Origin: Verrucomicrobiota bacterium
Lineage (GTDB): Bacteria > Verrucomicrobiota > Verrucomicrobiia > Chthoniobacterales > UBA10450
DNA: 49,553 nt
Direction of reading: 5' to 3'
Assembly: GCA_003218135.1 (NCBI GenBank)
Contig: QHNQ01000014.1
Coordinates: 1 to 49,553 of the forward strand
Positions 20,806 through 31,131 of this stretch are shown one piece after another. The notes beneath the pieces are model-generated. The model did not search any database. It was not told the DNA's origin and worked only from the letters and a program-made list of their open reading frames with translations. The position numbers and the translations under genes were made by a program. Positions within the stretch are counted from its first letter, which is position 1; each line of letters opens with the position of its first letter.

Positions 20806-22254
20806 TCAGGGCGCCACTTTGAAAAGGATCATCTCGCGTTTGCTGTAATCCTTTACCCGCGCAATTGCATACGCGCGGAGTGGCGCCCATTTCCGCGCGG
20901 CTAATGCCTCCTCTTCTTTCCCGCCCCGAACGAGAAAGTAGCGCGTGTCTATCGGCAGATGCTTCACGTAGCTCACGTACTCCACGTGCGGTTTCACATA
21001 AAAGAAGACCGGCTGATAATCCGGGTTCACCGCATAAAGCGTTTCAGTCGCGGGGACGAGCGAATTAATTTCTGCGGCGGCTTTTTTCACCTGCTGTCTG
21101 TTTTTCAAAAGGACTGCAGTGAGTGGATAACCGATTATCCCAATGGCAAGCCCAACCGTGACGAAAGCTCCCACGACTTTGGTCCAGTCTCGATCGTTCC
21201 TCATCCAACTTCGCGGCCACTGCAACGCATTGCCAGTACAGATCATCGCCAGCAACCACGAGCCTGGAACGATCGCCGGCATGCTATATCGGGCGACCGC
21301 GCCGGGAACCAGGTTGACCGCAACGAATGGCACCGCAATTCCCCACCCCATGGCGCGCGCGAGCCGCCGCTGCGATTCGTCCGGAAACTTTGAAAACCGT
21401 GCGAATGGAAACAAGAGAACCCAGGGAACAAAATAGATGAGACTGCGCGGGATGTTTTGAATCCAACTAAAGAATTTGAAATCGACGCCTTTCAATCGTC
21501 CGGTGTACTGAGCCGACCACTTATCCATGGCAACCTGTGTTGTCGTGCTGTGGATGAACGGAATGGCCCACGCGGCCGGCATGGCGAACATCACGGCAAG
21601 CGCAGCAAAATGCGCAGGATGAACAAGAAGCCGCCAACCTTTCGAACAGGCAAGAACGGCCACCACAATCCCGTAGAAAAATACCAGGTGCGTGGGGCCC
21701 TTTGCCAACAGATCAAGACCGAGAAAAACGGCTGCCGGAAGCCAAATAAGCCATGGAGATTTATTTTGAAGAAAAAAGCTCAGCCAAAAAATAATCGCGA
21801 GGCCGCAAAGCGAGACATAGAGCGCTTCGATTTCAATTAATCGCCCTTTTTCGATCATTCCGATGTTGGTCATCCAAATCAGCGCTGCGATCATCGATCT
21901 TCTCGAGCCGAGACTGGTGCGCGCCACCGTGACAAAAGCAACCGCGACTGCAAGCACGGAAAGCGCCGACGGCAGGCGTGCCGTCCATTCGTTATGCATA
22001 CCGAAAACTCTGAAAGAGGCGGCCACAACCCAGTTCACCAAAGGCGGCTTGCGGTAATAAGGATAACTGCCTACTTGCGGAACGATATAGTTGCCGGTCT
22101 CGAGCATCCGAATCGCCGGTAAGATTCGGCGGCCCTCTTCACCTTTGATCGCAATCGAGCCGAGCGCCGGCAGATAAATCACCGCCCAGACCAAAACAAT
22201 AACAGCGACAGCTCGGAAGGGAGATTTAATTAGAAATTCAAAGTTGAATGCCAC
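20806..22254 (-). CDS. Glycosyltransferase family 39-like (ArnT-type) membrane transferase
   Basis: 482 residues with about ten to twelve hydrophobic helices. The first periplasmic loop carries the family signature GEEGRRILPAIRMLETGNYIV followed by YYRKPPLVNWV, as in ArnT/PMT-like enzymes using lipid-linked sugars, with the acidic pair at about 38-39. The soluble C-terminal part (SLVPATETLYAVNPDYQ) resembles the periplasmic domain of ArnT-like proteins. The acceptor could be lipid A, another glycan or protein; nothing nearby decides it. It ends 28 bases before the marR operator, so read-through into marR is possible. Confidence 0.8.
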   Translation of the reverse strand: MAFNFEFLIKSPFRAVAVIVLVWAVIYLPALGSIAIKGEEGRRILPAIRMLETGNYIVPQVGSYPYYRKPPLVNWVVAASFRVFGMHNEWTARLPSALSVLAVAVAFVTVARTSLGSRRSMIAALIWMTNIGMIEKGRLIEIEALYVSLCGLAIIFWLSFFLQNKSPWLIWLPAAVFLGLDLLAKGPTHLVFFYGIVVAVLACSKGWRLLVHPAHFAALAVMFAMPAAWAIPFIHSTTTQVAMDKWSAQYTGRLKGVDFKFFSWIQNIPRSLIYFVPWVLLFPFARFSKFPDESQRRLARAMGWGIAVPFVAVNLVPGAVARYSMPAIVPGSWLLAMICTGNALQWPRSWMRNDRDWTKVVGAFVTVGLAIGIIGYPLTAVLLKNRQQVKKAAAEINSLVPATETLYAVNPDYQPVFFYVKPHVEYVSYVKHLPIDTRYFLVRGGKEEEALAARKWAPLRAYAIARVKDYSKREMILFKVAP

Positions 22255-22307: not shown

Positions 22308-22336
22308 TTGACGAGCGCGTTTGGGGAAAGTAACTT
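22308..22336 (+). promoter_or_regulatory. Candidate sigma-70 promoter for the nusA operon
   Basis: TTGACG at 22308-22313 (5 of 6 to consensus), a 17-base spacer, then TAACTT at 22331-22336 (weak -10, 3 of 6). Transcription would start near 22343, giving a leader of about 69 bases that contains the terminator-like hairpin. Supported by position only. Confidence 0.4.
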
Positions 22337-22360
22337 CGAAATCTAGTCCGCGCGCTGATT

Positions 22361-22389
22361 AGAGTGGGAACTGGCGTCCCACTCTTTTT
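22361..22389 (+). terminator. Intrinsic-terminator-like attenuator in the nusA leader
   Basis: AGAGTGGGA (22361-22369) pairs perfectly with TCCCACTCT (22377-22385) around a 7-base loop, and a T-run (22385-22389) follows at once. On the plus strand this is a textbook intrinsic terminator; on the minus strand no T-run follows. The gene to the left runs away on the minus strand, so no upstream plus-strand gene needs this terminator. It ends 22 bases before the nusA ATG and so most likely attenuates nusA itself. Confidence 0.65.
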
Positions 22390-22411
22390 AGTCTGCGGGC
22401 TGCATGTTTTT

Positions 22412-23662
22412 ATGAACCCGGAATTTATTGCGATGCTCGATTACTTGGAGCGGGAGCGCGGGATCAAGCGCGAAATCCTGCTCGAAGCGGTTTCTGATGC
22501 CCTGCTCTCCGCCTCGAAAAAGAGCGTTGGAGCATCCCGCGATCTGCATATCGACATTAACCGCAAGACCGGCGAAATCCGCGCCCTCGCAAACTTGCTC
22601 GTTGTTGATCACGTGACCAATCCGCAAGATGAGATCGAGCTCTCCAAGGCGCAAAAAATGAAGCCGGAGGCGAATGTCGGCGACACCGTGGAAGTCGAAG
22701 TCACACCGAAGAATTTTGGGCGCATCGCTGCGCAGACCGCAAAGCAAGCCATGATGCAGCGCATTCGCCAGGCCGAGAAGGAAATGATTTACGAGGAGTT
22801 TAAGGACCGCGCGGGTGAGATCGTCAGCGGTACCGTGCGGCGCTTCGACCGTTCCGACGTCATTCTCGACCTTGGAAAATTTGAAGCCGTCATGCCGCAA
22901 CGGGAACGAGTCGTCGTAGAAGATTACAATGTGGGCGACCGACTACGGGCGTACGTCGTTGCGGTCGAAAACGGCGTCCGCGGCCCGGAGATTATCGTTT
23001 CGCGCAGTCATCCCAATTTCGTCCGACGGCTTTTCGAGTTGGAAGTGAGCGAAATTGCCGATGGCACGGTGGAGATTCGCGGCATCGCGCGAGAAGCCGG
23101 TTACCGGACAAAGATCGCGGTATGGAGCGCCAACGAAAAAGTAGATCCAGTAGGCGCGTGTGTGGGCATGCGCGGTTCGCGCGTCAAAAACATCGTGCGC
23201 GAACTCAACAATGAAAAGGTCGATATCATTCGCTGGAGCTCCGACCCCAAGGAATACGTCCTCGAAGCGCTCAAGCCGGCCAAAGTGAAGAATCTGGTCT
23301 TCGATACAGACAAAAAGAGCGTACAGATTTCCGTCGATGAAGACCAGCTTTCGCTCGCGATCGGAAAAAAGGGACAGAATGCGCGATTAACTTCGCGACT
23401 GACAGGGTGGGAAATCAATATCGGCAAGGACACCTCAGCGACTACGGTGGTAGAGCAAAAAGTAGCGCAAGCTGCGCAGACACTTGCCGGCGCACTTCCG
23501 GTGACGGAAGAACAGGCGCTCACACTCGTGAAATCCGGTTTTACTAACTTGGAAGGATTACATGATGCAGACGTGCAGGATTTGGTGGATATTCTGGCAG
23601 TAGATGAAACGAAAGCGCGCGAGATCTACGACGCAGTGCACCGGCAGGAACTCGTGCAATAA
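22412..23662 (+). CDS. nusA: Transcription elongation/termination factor NusA
   Basis: Binds RNA polymerase near the RNA exit channel and modulates pausing, termination and antitermination. Order of domains: N-terminal RNAP-binding domain (MNPEFIAMLDYLERERGI to about 120), S1 domain (GEIVSGTVRRFDRSDVILDLG at about 135-155), KH1 (GYRTKIAV..DPVGACVGMRGSRVKNIVRELNNEKVDII) and KH2 (SLAIGKKGQNARLTSRLTGWEI), and a short C-terminal helix-hairpin region (LVKSGFTNLEGLHDADVQDLV). 416 residues from ATG 22412, chosen because MNPEF is the conserved start; a GTG at 22364 lies within the leader hairpin. rimP, the usual upstream neighbour, is absent. infB follows after 54 bases. Confidence 0.96.
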   Translation: MNPEFIAMLDYLERERGIKREILLEAVSDALLSASKKSVGASRDLHIDINRKTGEIRALANLLVVDHVTNPQDEIELSKAQKMKPEANVGDTVEVEVTPKNFGRIAAQTAKQAMMQRIRQAEKEMIYEEFKDRAGEIVSGTVRRFDRSDVILDLGKFEAVMPQRERVVVEDYNVGDRLRAYVVAVENGVRGPEIIVSRSHPNFVRRLFELEVSEIADGTVEIRGIAREAGYRTKIAVWSANEKVDPVGACVGMRGSRVKNIVRELNNEKVDIIRWSSDPKEYVLEALKPAKVKNLVFDTDKKSVQISVDEDQLSLAIGKKGQNARLTSRLTGWEINIGKDTSATTVVEQKVAQAAQTLAGALPVTEEQALTLVKSGFTNLEGLHDADVQDLVDILAVDETKAREIYDAVHRQELVQ

Positions 23663-23716: not shown

Positions 23717-25963
23717 ATGGCAACGAAGACGAGCAGCAAAACTGCAACGCGCAGACCCGCCACACCGGCGGGTGCGCGGAAGACTACTGCCGCTCCCAAG
23801 CCAGCCGTCGAGTCTAAATCAAAAGTCCAGAAGAAGAAATTAGCGGAAGAAACCGCTTCTGCCTCGGCAGCAGCTAAATCGCCCACGCCGCCGCCGCAAA
23901 AGAGTGAGGCCCGACGTACTCCGGCGCCTGCTTACGAACACGAGAGCGTCTCGCTGATCGACAAGAAAAAACCACGCAAGAAAGCAGAAGACGGCAAGCC
24001 AAAAACAAATCGCGATATCTTACCTCCGATCTCGCGCATACGCGCGTCATTGGACGCAACTGCGGCCCCCCGGAGAGTTTCAGCACCGGTGGAGCCTGCT
24101 CCTGCGCAATCGCCTGCAATTCAAGAACCGGGCGTCATTGCCGCCGAGACGACAGCGCCGCCTTCTTCGGAACCGGAAGCCCCGCAGCAGAAGGTCATCC
24201 TTATCAAACCTCCCATTGTTGTTAAGCAGCTGGCAACTGAGCTTGGGTTAAAGCCGCATCAACTCATCGCGGAGTTGATGACGTACAACATCTTCGCCAA
24301 CATCAACCAGACAGTTGAACCGGATATTGCGTCGAAAATTGCGGAGAGTCACGGGTTCATTCTGGAAAAGGAGCGGCGTGAAAAAGGGGCCGGCGTTCAC
24401 AAAGTGGAACAGGTCGTTGTCGCGCCACCTCCACCGGTCATCGAAAAGAAAGAGGAACTCAAGCCGCGCGGCCCCATCATCACGTTCATGGGACATGTTG
24501 ATCATGGCAAAACGACGCTCCTGGATGCGATTCGCAAGACGCGTGTTGCAGCTGGTGAAGCCGGTGGCATCACCCAACACATCGGCGCCTACGCTGTAAG
24601 TCACAACAGCGCGACACTCACGTTCATCGACACGCCGGGTCACGCAGCCTTCACCGCCATGCGCGCGCGCGGCGCTAACGTAACCGATATCGTCGTGCTC
24701 GTCGTCGCCGCCAATGACGGCATCATGCCTCAAACAATTGAAGCTATTAATCACGCCAAGGCCGCGCCGCATGTGACAATCATGGTGGCGATCAACAAAA
24801 TCGATCTTCCGTCGGCGAACATCGACGGGGTTAAAAAACAACTCCAAGAGCAGGGGCTTACTCCGGAAGATTGGGGAGGCGAAACGATTGTTTGTCCAGT
24901 CTCAGGTACGAGAGGCACTGGAATTGATCACCTGCTTGAGATGATCACGCTGCAGGCGGAGGTCATGGAGCTAAAGGCATCACCCACGGCCAGACCGCGC
25001 GGCACCGTGATTGAAGCACAGGTGGAAGCGGGGCGTGGCCCTACTGCTACAGTGATCGTGCAGATGGGGACGTTAAAAGTCGGCGACCCGTTTATCTGCG
25101 GCGATTACAGTGGCAAGGTAAAATCGCTGCTCGACGATCGTGGCGAACCGATCAAGGAAGCCGGACCTTCCACGCCAGTGAAGGTGCTTGGGTTTACTGG
25201 CCTGCCGAATGCGGGGGACGAATTGCTTGTCATGGAATCGGAGCGCGCTGCGAAACAATTGAGCGATGAACGACTCGAGGCAAAGCGCGCGAGCAAGCTG
25301 TACGTTCCGCAACGCGCTACGCTGGAAAGCTTGCTTGAAACGGCGGGAGGCCAAAAGGTTCTACGCATCGTGTTGAAATGCGACACGCAAGGCTCGCTCG
25401 AAGCGATCGTCGGCGCGTTGAAGCAAATCGAGACCAAAAAGGTCAATCTCGAAATTATCCACTCCGCTGTAGGGCCAATTTCGGAATCGGACATCCTACT
25501 GGCAAGCGCGTCGGACGCGGTCGTGGTCGGCTTTAACGTGAAGGTCGAGTCGATGGCTGTTTCTGCTGCGAAACGCGAAGGCGTGCAGATCAAGCTTTAC
25601 AGCATCATTTACGAGTTACTCGATCAGATGACGGATGTCATGGCAGGGCTGCTTGAACCCGAGCTCCGTGAGACCGTGATCGGCCACGCCGAGGTCAAAC
25701 AGGTTTTCCAGCTAAGCAAAGGCATTGTTGCGGGCTGCCTGGTCACCAATGGCCGCATCGCCCGCACTGCGCGCGCTCGCGTCCTGCGAAAGCGCCAGCC
25801 GGTTTACGACGGCGGCATTTCGACGCTGCGGCGGTTCCAGGACGACGTGAAAGAAGTGCGCTCCGGTCTGGAATGCGGGATTAAACTGGGCGACTTCAGC
25901 GAATACCAGGTGGGCGACGTGATCGAGTGTTATCAACTCGAACAGATAGCGCAGAAACTGTAG
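23717..25963 (+). CDS. infB: Translation initiation factor IF-2
   Basis: GTPase that brings fMet-tRNA to the 30S subunit. 748 residues: a variable Lys/Ala/Pro-rich N-terminus of about 160, IF2-N (IVVKQLATELGLKPHQLIAELM), then the G domain with GHVDHGKTT (about 257-265), DTPGHAAFT (G3), NKID (G4), and C-terminal domains II to IV ending near GDFSEYQVGDVIECY. Shorter at the N-terminus than E. coli IF-2. Second gene of nusA-infB-rbfA, co-transcribed on spacing. Confidence 0.97.
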   Translation: MATKTSSKTATRRPATPAGARKTTAAPKPAVESKSKVQKKKLAEETASASAAAKSPTPPPQKSEARRTPAPAYEHESVSLIDKKKPRKKAEDGKPKTNRDILPPISRIRASLDATAAPRRVSAPVEPAPAQSPAIQEPGVIAAETTAPPSSEPEAPQQKVILIKPPIVVKQLATELGLKPHQLIAELMTYNIFANINQTVEPDIASKIAESHGFILEKERREKGAGVHKVEQVVVAPPPPVIEKKEELKPRGPIITFMGHVDHGKTTLLDAIRKTRVAAGEAGGITQHIGAYAVSHNSATLTFIDTPGHAAFTAMRARGANVTDIVVLVVAANDGIMPQTIEAINHAKAAPHVTIMVAINKIDLPSANIDGVKKQLQEQGLTPEDWGGETIVCPVSGTRGTGIDHLLEMITLQAEVMELKASPTARPRGTVIEAQVEAGRGPTATVIVQMGTLKVGDPFICGDYSGKVKSLLDDRGEPIKEAGPSTPVKVLGFTGLPNAGDELLVMESERAAKQLSDERLEAKRASKLYVPQRATLESLLETAGGQKVLRIVLKCDTQGSLEAIVGALKQIETKKVNLEIIHSAVGPISESDILLASASDAVVVGFNVKVESMAVSAAKREGVQIKLYSIIYELLDQMTDVMAGLLEPELRETVIGHAEVKQVFQLSKGIVAGCLVTNGRIARTARARVLRKRQPVYDGGISTLRRFQDDVKEVRSGLECGIKLGDFSEYQVGDVIECYQLEQIAQKL

Positions 25964-25977
25964 GGCGTCCGCGTCAG

Positions 25978-26343
25978 ATGCCGGCGCTTGTTATGAAACA
26001 CCGACAACTTCGGGTAAACGAACTCGTCAAACGTGAGCTGAGCGCTAGCATTGCGCGCCAAATAAACTTCGAAGATGTCCTTGTCAGTATAAACGCTGTC
26101 GATGTCACGCCCGACCTGAAGAGCGCGCATGTGTTCGTAAGCATTCTCGGCCAAGCAACCGGCGCGAGCGTACTCGATAAACTGGAGGCGCATCGTCCCG
26201 CGCTGCAAGCTGAACTTTCCCGTCACGTTGTTCTCAAATACACTCCGCATTTGGTTTTTCATCTTGACGATTCGATCGAGCGCGGCGCACGTGTCCTCGA
26301 GATTTTGCAGGACCTTGAAAAACGCAGTGGCCAAGACCAGTGA
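25978..26343 (+). CDS. rbfA: Ribosome-binding factor A
   Basis: KH-fold 16S rRNA maturation and cold-adaptation factor. Recognised by RQLRVNELVKRELSASIAR near the start, VLVSINAVDVTPDLKSAHVFVSILG in the middle, and LRxxLxxxxxL-type and TPHLVFHLDDSIERGARVLEIL at the end. The start may be ATG 25978 or ATG 25993; the second begins MKHRQLRV and is closer to typical starts, but both lie after the infB stop, with 14 or 29 bases between. 122 or 117 residues. Confidence 0.92.
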   Translation: MPALVMKHRQLRVNELVKRELSASIARQINFEDVLVSINAVDVTPDLKSAHVFVSILGQATGASVLDKLEAHRPALQAELSRHVVLKYTPHLVFHLDDSIERGARVLEILQDLEKRSGQDQ

Positions 26344-26460: not shown

Positions 26461-27456
26461 ATGACCGCTTCAACATTTGACGAAATCGGCCGGGTTCTGC
26501 GCGAGCATCAGCACTTCGCGATCCTAGGTCATGTGCGGCCTGACGGTGACGCGCTGGGAAGTCAGCTCGCGCTCGCATTGTCGCTTCAGCAGCTCGGCAA
26601 AGATGTCCGCGTCTGGAATGAAGACGGTATGCTGGAAAAATATTCATTTTTGCCGCGCGCCGAATTGCTGACCAAACCGCCTGCGACAGCCATCGATGTC
26701 GATGTCGCAATCGCGCTCGACACTGCAATTCAAAATCGGCTTGGAACCGCGCTGGCGGCTGTCGGGTCGGCAAAAATCTGGGTCAACATCGATCATCACA
26801 GCAGCAACCCAGGATATGGCGATTTGGTGATTGTCGATGTAAGCGCGCCGGCCACCGGCGAAATCATTTTTAGATTGATCAGGAACCAGGGCCTGCCTCT
26901 CGACCACGATATAGCAGAGAATCTTTACGCCGCGATTTCCACTGACACCGGTTCATTTCAATATCCAAAAACCAGCGCCCGCACGTTCGAGATCGCCACG
27001 GAACTCGTGCGCGCTGGCGGCCTCAACGTTGGCAAAATCAGCCAACAATTATACGAGAATTACCCGCGACGCCGTTTGGAACTGCTGCGAGAGCTTCTCC
27101 GGACGATGCGCTTTAGCGAGGGCGGTCGAGTCGCAAGTTTTAGCCTCACCTTACGGACGGCCGCAGATTTGGGTGTCCTTCCCGAGGACAATGAAGGATT
27201 AATCGATCATCTCCGGGCAGTTCGCGGCGTGATCGTCGCCGTCTTTTTTGAGGAACTTGCCGACGGCAAAGCGCGCGTAAGCATGCGCTCAAAAGACGAA
27301 GCCGTGGATGTCTGCGCGATTTGCCAGAAATTCGGCGGCGGCGGGCATACGCTGGCTGCCGGCGCGCGCATTCGCGGAAATCTTGTCGAAGTCGAAGAGC
27401 GCGTTTTGAAAGAAGTCGGCGATAAACTTGAAGTCTATCAACGGCCGTCATCCTGA
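26461..27456 (+). CDS. nrnA: Bifunctional oligoribonuclease / pAp phosphatase (DHH-DHHA1)
   Basis: 331 residues. DHH domain: ILGHVRPDGDALGSQLAL (metal-binding Asp residues near 24-28), VAIALDTAI, NIDHHSSN (the DHH motif near 110-117) and ISTDTGSFQYPKTS. DHHA1 domain: FGGGGHTLAAGARI at about 299-312 binds the RNA end. NrnA degrades nanoRNAs and dephosphorylates pAp. ATG 26461 is used; the open frame to 26377 is repeat-derived. Its position between rbfA and truB is a conserved gene order. The last codons and stop lie inside a downstream repeat arm. Confidence 0.93.
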   Translation: MTASTFDEIGRVLREHQHFAILGHVRPDGDALGSQLALALSLQQLGKDVRVWNEDGMLEKYSFLPRAELLTKPPATAIDVDVAIALDTAIQNRLGTALAAVGSAKIWVNIDHHSSNPGYGDLVIVDVSAPATGEIIFRLIRNQGLPLDHDIAENLYAAISTDTGSFQYPKTSARTFEIATELVRAGGLNVGKISQQLYENYPRRRLELLRELLRTMRFSEGGRVASFSLTLRTAADLGVLPEDNEGLIDHLRAVRGVIVAVFFEELADGKARVSMRSKDEAVDVCAICQKFGGGGHTLAAGARIRGNLVEVEERVLKEVGDKLEVYQRPSS

Positions 27457-27552: not shown

Positions 27553-28275
27553 ATGTCTCCTTCTCCAACGATTGACGGTGTCATCCTGGTGGATAAAGCC
27601 GAAGGGATGACATCGCACGACGTTGTTGCGCTGGCGCGGCGAAAACTCGGCACCAAAAAAATCGGCCATTGCGGCACGTTAGATCCGATCGCCACCGGTT
27701 TACTGTTGCTCACGGTTGGACGTGGCACAAAAGTTCAGGATTTGCTGATGAGCGAAGATAAAGAATACGCTGGTACATTCGTGCTTGGCGTGACCACCGA
27801 CACGCAGGATCGACAAGGCGAAGTGATTCAGCAGCGGCCGGTCCCCGCGCTGGATGATAATCAAATTCGCGCCGTATTTGAAAAGTTCCGCGGCGATTTT
27901 TATCAACTGCCACCGATGGTCTCTGCGAAAAAGCATGGCGGCGTTCCGCTTTACAAGCTCGCGCGCCAGGGGAAAACGGTCGAGCGCGAGCCGCGGTTGG
28001 TGCATGTCTATCGCTACAGCATTGACAGGATCGCCTTGCCGGAAATCGACTTCAGCGTGTTGTGCAGCAAGGGATTTTATGTCCGCACCTACGTACATGA
28101 CATTGGAGAGGCCCTCGGCTGCGGCGCGCATTTGAAATCGCTGCGCCGGACGAAATCCGGCCGGTTCGATGTGGCGAACGCGATCACAGTCGACGAAATC
28201 AAAAATTCTTCGCGCGAAGAAATTCTCGAACGGATGCTGAGTCTTCCTGAAGTGTCGAGAATGCGCGGCGCGTGA
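27553..28275 (+). CDS. truB: tRNA pseudouridine(55) synthase TruB
   Basis: Converts U55 in the T loop of tRNAs to pseudouridine. 240 residues: GVILVDKAEGMTSHDVV, then GHCGTLDPIATGLLLLTVG with the catalytic Asp near 46, YAGTFVLGVTTDTQDRQG near 72, QLPPMVSAKKHGGVPLYKLAR near 116, and CSKGFYVRTYVHDIGEALG near 174. ATG 27553 is chosen over GTG 27547. It lies downstream of nrnA after a repeat. The short C-terminus matches the type without a PUA domain. Confidence 0.95.
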   Translation: MSPSPTIDGVILVDKAEGMTSHDVVALARRKLGTKKIGHCGTLDPIATGLLLLTVGRGTKVQDLLMSEDKEYAGTFVLGVTTDTQDRQGEVIQQRPVPALDDNQIRAVFEKFRGDFYQLPPMVSAKKHGGVPLYKLARQGKTVEREPRLVHVYRYSIDRIALPEIDFSVLCSKGFYVRTYVHDIGEALGCGAHLKSLRRTKSGRFDVANAITVDEIKNSSREEILERMLSLPEVSRMRGA

Positions 28276-28432: not shown

Positions 28433-29359
28433 ATGGAAACGGTTCGATCCATCTCCGAGTTGTCGAAATTACGTGGCCCGCTCTTTCTCGCCATCGGCGT
28501 ATTCGATGGCATGCATCTCGGCCATCAGGCAGTCATCTCCACCTCCGCTGAACATGCGCGATCAGTCAATGGAACACCTGTCGTGGTCACATTTGATCCG
28601 CATCCGGAAAAGGTATTGCGTCCGCAAGCCGCGCCTCATTTGCTTACCGCTACCCAACACAAGATCGGCTTAATTCGCGATCTCGGCGTCGGTCATCTTC
28701 TGATCATTGCATTCGACAAGCAATTTGCTGCCACCGAACCCGAAGACTTTGTGCAGCAATTAGTGAAGCACTCGAAACCGCTGCGGGAAATTTGCGTTGG
28801 ACACGAATGGGCGTTTGGAAAAAATCGACGTGGCAATCTCGAACTGCTCAAGAAACTCGGCGCACGATTTGATTTCGGCGTAGTGGGAATTCCGCCGGTC
28901 ACCGTCAATGGCGAAATCGTCAGCAGCACTACGATACGACAGGCCGTAGAAGCGGGCGATCTGCGAAAGGCGGCAGCGATGCTTGGCCGCGAATACACGA
29001 TCCTGGGAACTGTTGTGCGCGGCGATGATTTGGGAAAGAAAATCGGATTTCCAACAGCAAATCTGAGCGCGCACAATGAGCAGTTCCCGCCAAATGGAGT
29101 GTATTTCGCCCAAGCCATCCTCAATGGGGTCATCTATCCGGGCGTGGTGAATCTAGGCTATCGCCCAACCGTGAGCAGCGAGAAAGACCGCGTGCTGGAA
29201 ATTCACCTGTTCGACTTCGACCGCGACATCTATGGCAGCGATTTAGAAGTGCGCTTTGTCCGCTATCTCAGGCCGGAAAAGAAATTTGAAAGTGTCGAGG
29301 CGCTGGCTCGCCAGATCGCGCTCGACGTAAAACAAGCGCGCGAGTTAGCCGCGGCATAA
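28433..29359 (+). CDS. ribF: Bifunctional riboflavin kinase / FAD synthetase
   Basis: 308 residues. N-terminal FMN adenylyltransferase domain: LAIGVFDGMHLGHQAVI at about 19-35 (nucleotide-binding HxGH type), VVTFDPHPEKVLRP, CVGHEWAFGKNRRGNLELL, and SSTTIRQAVEAGDL. C-terminal riboflavin kinase domain: VVRGDDLGKKIGFPTANL, PPNGVYFAQAILNG, VVNLGYRPTV, EIHLFDFDRDIYG. It ends the nusA-ribF operon and is convergent, with a 4-base gap, to the anti-sigma gene. Normal length. Confidence 0.96.
   Translation: METVRSISELSKLRGPLFLAIGVFDGMHLGHQAVISTSAEHARSVNGTPVVVTFDPHPEKVLRPQAAPHLLTATQHKIGLIRDLGVGHLLIIAFDKQFAATEPEDFVQQLVKHSKPLREICVGHEWAFGKNRRGNLELLKKLGARFDFGVVGIPPVTVNGEIVSSTTIRQAVEAGDLRKAAAMLGREYTILGTVVRGDDLGKKIGFPTANLSAHNEQFPPNGVYFAQAILNGVIYPGVVNLGYRPTVSSEKDRVLEIHLFDFDRDIYGSDLEVRFVRYLRPEKKFESVEALARQIALDVKQARELAAA

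Positions 29360-31058: not shown

Positions 31059-31131
<73 letters not shown>

Follow-up and report, generated by a model that had tools for sequence, protein, structure and literature searches.

Why does a terminator-like hairpin stand between a promoter and the first gene of an operon, at a place where no gene ends? The question is raised by the leader of nusA in the window (the whole stretch of 49,553 nucleotides analysed here), which comes from a Verrucomicrobiota MAG of 2.75 Mb in 214 contigs, estimated to be 86.65% complete. The near relatives of this host are mostly soil MAGs, some of them titled Candidatus Udaeobacter. The original prediction took the hairpin for a self-limiting switch acting on nusA and the genes behind it. 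In our view the leader is probably a promoter-proximal transcription attenuator of the rimP-leader kind, by which NusA would exert negative feedback on the nusA operon.

Layout of the leader

The promoter and the hairpin had been placed correctly in the original prediction, as seen by direct reading of the window (Table 1). The hairpin had also been described as a perfect 9-bp stem followed at once by five T. The nine base pairs, which close a 7-nt loop, and the run of five T both stood, but the first T of the run pairs with A22361, so that the element has either a 9-bp stem with four T or an 8-bp stem with five. The left neighbour does lie on the opposite strand, as had been stated, and since it diverges from nusA no gene ends at the hairpin here.

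Table 1. Positions in the window of the leader elements and of the genes around them
Feature	Position	Strand	Basis
Divergent glycosyltransferase-like left gene	20806-22254	minus	ArnT-type match, weak and far under cut-off
Promoter, -35 TTGACG	22308-22313	+	direct reading
Promoter, -10 TAACTT (17-nt spacer)	22331-22336	+	direct reading
Predicted transcription start	22343-22345	+	7 nt past the -10; foot of the outer stem
Outer stem, 5' arm	22344-22358 (22344-22352 and 22354-22358)	+	folds; double changes
Inner hairpin, arms AGAGTGGGA (22361-22369) and TCCCACTCT (22377-22385)	22361-22385	+	direct reading
T-run of the inner hairpin	22385-22389	+	
Outer stem, 3' arm	22388-22402 (22388-22392 pairing with 22354-22358, 22394-22402 pairing with 22344-22352)	+	folds; double changes; 9 nt before the ATG
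GUC at fixed spacing past the U-run	22391-22393	+	column conservation among leaders
nusA, first gene of the operon (ATG at 22412)	22412-23662	+	NCBIfam TIGR01953, 425 bits
infB	23717-25963	+	TIGR00487
rbfA	25993-26343	+	TIGR00082, above cut-off; start picked by eye
nrnA-like DHH phosphoesterase gene	26461-27456	+	NF053633, E 2e-36, under its cut-off; start picked by eye
truB	27553-28275	+	TIGR00431
ribF	28433-29359	+	TIGR00083
tRNA gene	31059-31131		sole Rfam family in the window at gathering threshold

No Shine-Dalgarno sequence is visible upstream of the nusA ATG. The nusA frame is open upstream as far as a GTG within the hairpin (22364-22411), which would add 16 codons.

Within 3.5 kb there are 11 terminator-like sites, compared with a mean of 5.7 in shuffled sequences, and the nusA hairpin has the longest stem of them all. 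The RNA from 22330 to 22430 folds with -37.7 kcal/mol (z -4.80, equalled by none of 200 shuffles) and that from 22344 to 22411 with -36.0 kcal/mol (z -5.45). The part that reaches up to the U-run (22344-22390) reaches by itself no more than z -1.76, and 8 of 200 shuffles fold equally well; the inner hairpin persists in the fold of this truncated transcript. Conservation is stronger evidence for the nusA hairpin than folding energy, and judged from the comparison of sequences the hairpin and its U-run are real and not a product of chance. A search for copies of the leader in the host genome recovered the leader itself alone, so that it is not a repeat there.

Conservation of the inner hairpin before nusA

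Two sets of leaders were compared. The close set was made up of the best 80 among 548 loci that encode NusA relatives, and the phylum set of 80 regions upstream of NusA from the 150 genomes with listed NusA coordinates, 279 of the 288 Verrucomicrobiota genomes sampled having a NusA match. One genome occurs in both sets (L101 = L113, motif absent), and the leaders of L050 and L051 are identical. The original prediction had named covarying stem bases and a retained T-run in relatives as the check on its reading, and both were found. A strict detector of the core (GUGGG...CCCAC type with a U-run) recognised 67 of 79 leaders in the close set and 61 of 80 in the phylum set, while dinucleotide shuffles gave means of 0.3 and 0.5 for the two sets over 20 rounds. 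A looser selection of hairpins with a G[T/C]GG[G/A] core gave 132 of 161 leaders, of which 67 are among the 81 of the close set with the window counted and 65 among the 80 of the phylum set. In this count two leaders are cut by contig ends (L042, L070), one is included despite a broken U-run (L143), and three (L090, L140, L151), for which the automatic choice took a different hairpin, were then assigned by their pattern.

In an alignment of 84 distinct rows (A2), 97.2% of the inner-stem cells are paired, a value favoured by selection since the rows were picked for pairing. The same alignment holds 42 double-change cells compared with 12.4 in shuffles, a number reached by none of 500 shuffles and far above that obtained with the partners slid. 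Five pairs show any double change at all, which was equalled by 51 of 500 shuffles. The 84 rows were taken from 88 references with the exclusion of four GTGGAAAC-type hairpins (L138, L139, L159 and L164). In these four, from families f8 and f11, the stem GTGGAAAC/GTTTCCAC replaces GTGGG/CCCAC and is followed by a U-run, which amounts to a compensated change of the core.

Beyond mere pairing, the core bases themselves (GUGGG/CCCAC) are conserved phylum-wide. After CCCAC, each of the positions +3 to +6 is a T in 96-100% of the 117 distinct leaders; in 34% of the 64 phylum leaders the run is limited to four consecutive U by a G at +7. Being an inverted repeat that lies just 3' of a promoter, the element might also be a DNA operator bound by a dimeric regulator, a reading which we hold to be very improbable and have rejected, on the grounds that the spacing of the arms varies (loops of 3-9 nt among leaders) and that the T-run is one-sided; U-G pairs are in addition frequent at one position of the core (18 of 113 distinct stems, under a selection that permitted them). 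The 3' terminator of a neighbouring gene was likewise rejected: among the 60 motif-bearing close-set leaders with 1.2 kb or more of upstream sequence, the nearest long ORF, found by an ORF heuristic, is divergent in 46 and co-directional in 14.

The element is absent in the close set from L092 and from the sister-lineage loci L094, L096, L099, L101-L103 and L105-L109. In the phylum set 15 of 80 leaders are without it (families f2, f3, f4, f5, f19, f27, f31, f32, f38, f46 and f57), and family f27 also has a member that carries it. Among these 15 are all five leaders from the four sister families of the host's order. This distribution suggests that it was probably lost more than once. One phylum leader (L143, genome G257) retains a GAGTGGG/CCCACTC hairpin with a broken U-run (CTCTGTTGTGC), that is, a stem without a terminator tail. 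In eight of the sister-lineage loci (L094, L096, L102, L103, L105, L106, L108 and L109, at about 2436-2500) the terminator is lacking, and a different conserved stem-loop without a U-run stands before nusA. It consists of CCCGAC...GUCGGG enclosing CUGUC and GGAA, has 88% mean column identity over the eight loci (of which L094, L102 and L105 were folded), and is possibly another nusA leader RNA.

The specificity of the element for nusA was seen with a covariance model (R1) built from alignment A2. In the host genome the leader in the window scored 41.2 bits and the next candidate 20.3 (150 of 436 candidates scored). With E up to 0.05 the model matched in 181 of the 288 phylum genomes, a figure that is partly so by construction because 59 of the 84 rows of R1 stem from those genomes. 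Among the 150 phylum matches listed, 100 sit 6-100 nt before NusA, 17 lie elsewhere and 33 are in genomes without a listed NusA coordinate. For the 58 of these matches with at least 36 bits the corresponding numbers are 54, 0 and 4, and the best match away from nusA among those listed has 35.2 bits. Three genomes of one genus have a second R1 match of about 31 bits away from nusA (G102 C1:2875633, G300 C1:2817380, G328 C21:6557), which might represent a further leader or simply an ordinary terminator.

Outer stem, promoter and predicted start

As far as a conserved, covarying, promoter-proximal and nusA-specific terminator-like hairpin is concerned, the earlier interpretation held; it had overlooked a second stem, a GUC past the U-run and the phylum-wide extent of the absence of rimP. 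In the fold of 22330-22430 the terminator and part of its U-run are enclosed by an outer stem. The conservation of this stem was followed in an alignment of 51 matches, 47 of them distinct, from 79 sources (A7), which was used since the MAFFT alignment A4 had misplaced the gaps of the outer stem. Eight weaker plus-strand matches were left out, minus-strand matches reaching such scores, and 20 sources had no plus-strand match at E 0.01. Double changes occur in 7 of the 14 outer pairs, and over the structure as a whole 26 cells show a double change compared with 5.8 in shuffles (reached in 0 of 500); A7 leans towards the model in these counts because it was fitted to it.

A duplex test gave a similar picture. 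In 30 dereplicated close-set leaders the leader's own arms pair with -17.5 kcal/mol compared with -10.9 kcal/mol for mononucleotide-shuffled 3' arms (26 better, p 1e-7), and in 63 phylum leaders with -11.5 compared with -9.1 (49 better, p 2.4e-6), p values that are too small because related leaders are not independent. As controls, offset arms gave in the close set a null result at the 3' offset (p 0.32) and a weak effect at two 5' offsets (p 0.0074 and 0.015), and all three offsets were unremarkable in the phylum set (p 0.98, 0.71 and 0.08). When arms were swapped between close-set leaders the mean was -13.6 kcal/mol, and only 9 of 30 leaders beat 95% of their swaps, as did 12 of 63 in the phylum set. 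Taken as comparative evidence, these data make the outer stem well supported in the host's family, and are only suggestive of it beyond that family.

A promoter was found in 48 of 53 distinct close-set hairpin leaders, at a near-constant position and in all 48 with TTGACG, a spacer of 16-17 and TAnnnT. The search accepted TTGAC[G/A/C] as well as TTTAC[A/G], with spacers from 15 to 19, and gave a mean of 0.42 in mononucleotide shuffles. It found no promoter in L072, L088, L098, L104 and L110, and a generic promoter scan did not list TTGACG-17-TAACTT. In the 48 promoter-bearing leaders a start placed 7 nt past the -10 would lie 12-18 nt ahead of the inner stem. In the window the outer stem begins at this predicted start, so that a terminated RNA would have about 47 nt. 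Past the U-run, a GUC is found at a fixed distance; its three positions are conserved to 94% (G), 96% (T) and 98% (C) in the close set (n=53), and to 55, 83 and 33% in the phylum set (n=64). Such a fixed distance would suit a pause or stop site of the polymerase.

The 3' arm of the outer stem lies mostly past the U-run. The outer stem should therefore have to await read-through before it can form, and could scarcely decide on termination here. That it covaries and begins at the predicted 5' end, and that the sister group of eight loci has a conserved stem before nusA without a terminator, would also fit a post-transcriptional element, in which the two-stem hairpin caps the 5' end of the mRNA (for stability, RNase III processing or control of translation) and the U-run is incidental. 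A cap would explain neither the conserved U at positions +3 to +6 nor the G(U) that follows at a fixed distance, and we consider this reading quite unlikely.

Absence of rimP and the candidate regulator

The original prediction had noted that rimP, the usual first gene of the operon, is absent here. This is borne out for the host, where RimP_N has no match in the 86.65% complete MAG, and extends to the sample of the phylum: RimP_N was found in none of 288 Verrucomicrobiota genomes, and in 10 of 14 control genomes. RimP_C (DUF150_C) matched in three of the 288 genomes, in two of them above the Pfam cut-off and in none together with RimP_N. One of these matches (G311, L198:977-1147; 34.5 bits, above cut-off) covers the C-terminal SH3 domain only in a 56-aa frame, which may be a lone RimP_C-like domain. 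Another lies in the N-terminal part of a 338-aa protein (G320) and is above the cut-off in one search and below it in another, and the third is in a short secreted-looking protein with a signal peptide (G295). The element persists without rimP in most of the phylum sample, which argues against RimP as its regulator there. The phylum sample may in this sense be regarded as a natural deletion experiment, which points either to NusA or to some other factor that was retained.

Pausing at hairpins and intrinsic termination are both stimulated by NusA. In the mechanism that we propose, RNA polymerase would start near 22344, and the inner hairpin would be complete at about nucleotide 42 and the U-run at nucleotide 46. 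At the U-run transcription would either stop, releasing the RNA of about 47 nt, or read through into nusA-infB-rbfA and probably also nrnA-truB-ribF. Since NusA stimulates termination, a high level of NusA would reduce expression of the operon, which is the negative feedback. After read-through, the downstream strand would pair with the extreme 5' end and form a 5'-terminal compound hairpin that ends 9 nt before the nusA ATG; its outer stem may protect the mRNA, direct its processing or tune the initiation of translation 9 nt downstream.

With only 47 nt transcribed, and no sensor evident besides NusA and RNA polymerase, partial termination might also be constant and unregulated, in which case the terminator sets a low read-through and merely lowers the strength of the promoter, with no feedback by NusA. 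The folds of the 68-nt leader agree with this in so far as they reveal neither an antiterminator nor an aptamer. We nevertheless think it unlikely: a mere terminator could drift, but the core sequence is conserved throughout the phylum, and for other phyla feedback by NusA on its operon has been either stated or put forward in the literature (PMC2965389, PMC12288461, PMC4448216).

In the text of Naville and Gautheret (2010) the rimP-leader is called the most ubiquitous bacterial transcription attenuator, with NusA as the best candidate for its regulator and RimP as a possible one (PMC2965389). Autoregulation by attenuation, with NusA-stimulated termination in the 5' leader of its own operon, is summarised for Bacillus subtilis in PMC12288461, citing Mondal 2016, and for the rimP-nusA operon of Streptococcus agalactiae a short RNA ending 31 nt past the start is described, with the suggestion of NusA feedback (PMC4448216). 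The leader studied here resembles the rimP-leader, as outlined in PMC2965389, in having a hairpin with GGG in the 5' arm and CCC in the 3' arm, followed by a U-stretch a short distance upstream of the gene that opens the nusA-infB operon, and it would share the effector proposed there. It differs in that rimP heads the operon there, whereas the operon here is nusA-infB without rimP, and in its second, covarying stem, no such stem being reported in the 2010 description. The GGG/CCC of the GGGc(...)gCCC stem given there is present, but in the Verrucomicrobiota core GUGGG/CCCAC the following pair is not a fixed C-G: the pair next to the core in 113 distinct stems is A-U in 38 (as in the window), U-A in 23, C-G in 11 and of other kinds in the rest. 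With the B. subtilis ylxS(rimP)-nusA leader it would have in common the termination stimulated by NusA in its own operon, reported as measured there and proposed here, and it is shorter, about 68 nt compared with the length of about 180 nt quoted in PMC2965389. The word 'Verrucomicrobia' does not occur in the main text of that paper, and among the titles and abstracts listed we found no paper on a nusA attenuator or on RimP loss in Verrucomicrobiota. On the evidence of sequence and predicted structure, the element is a rimP-less, two-stem counterpart of the rimP-leader attenuators.

It is tempting to go one step further and to speculate that the leader represents a distinct Verrucomicrobiota RNA family, in which an inner terminator tuned by NusA decides within the initial 47 nt and the outer stem, formed only after read-through, caps the 5' end and sets the stability of the mRNA or the translation of nusA. 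We put this forward tentatively, as possible rather than probable. On such a two-part reading regulation cannot need RimP, since the element has outlived rimP, and if it is true the choice between RimP and another factor such as NusA as the regulator would be settled for this phylum. With its length of about 68 nt and a single predicted promoter, the leader also offers a short system for direct tests of NusA feedback.

The Rfam family RF01770, which concerns the same operon and the same idea of a terminator, had no match in the host genome with E up to 1, in a search that matched 8 of 14 control genomes, one of them above the cut-off (47 bits), and none in the leader with E up to 10. A lax Rfam search gave no RF01770 among 11 related loci; all matches in these loci, and all those in the leader of the window, were far under the gathering scores, as was RF02423, which overlapped the leader of L098 (18.7 bits, gathering score 80). 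In the reverse direction, the best match of R1 in 4.5 kb of Escherichia coli sequence was the rimP leader, with a weak score (13.7 bits, E 0.029) and with a GUCU past the U-run aligned, which hints at a common descent of the Verrucomicrobiota element and the E. coli rimP-leader.
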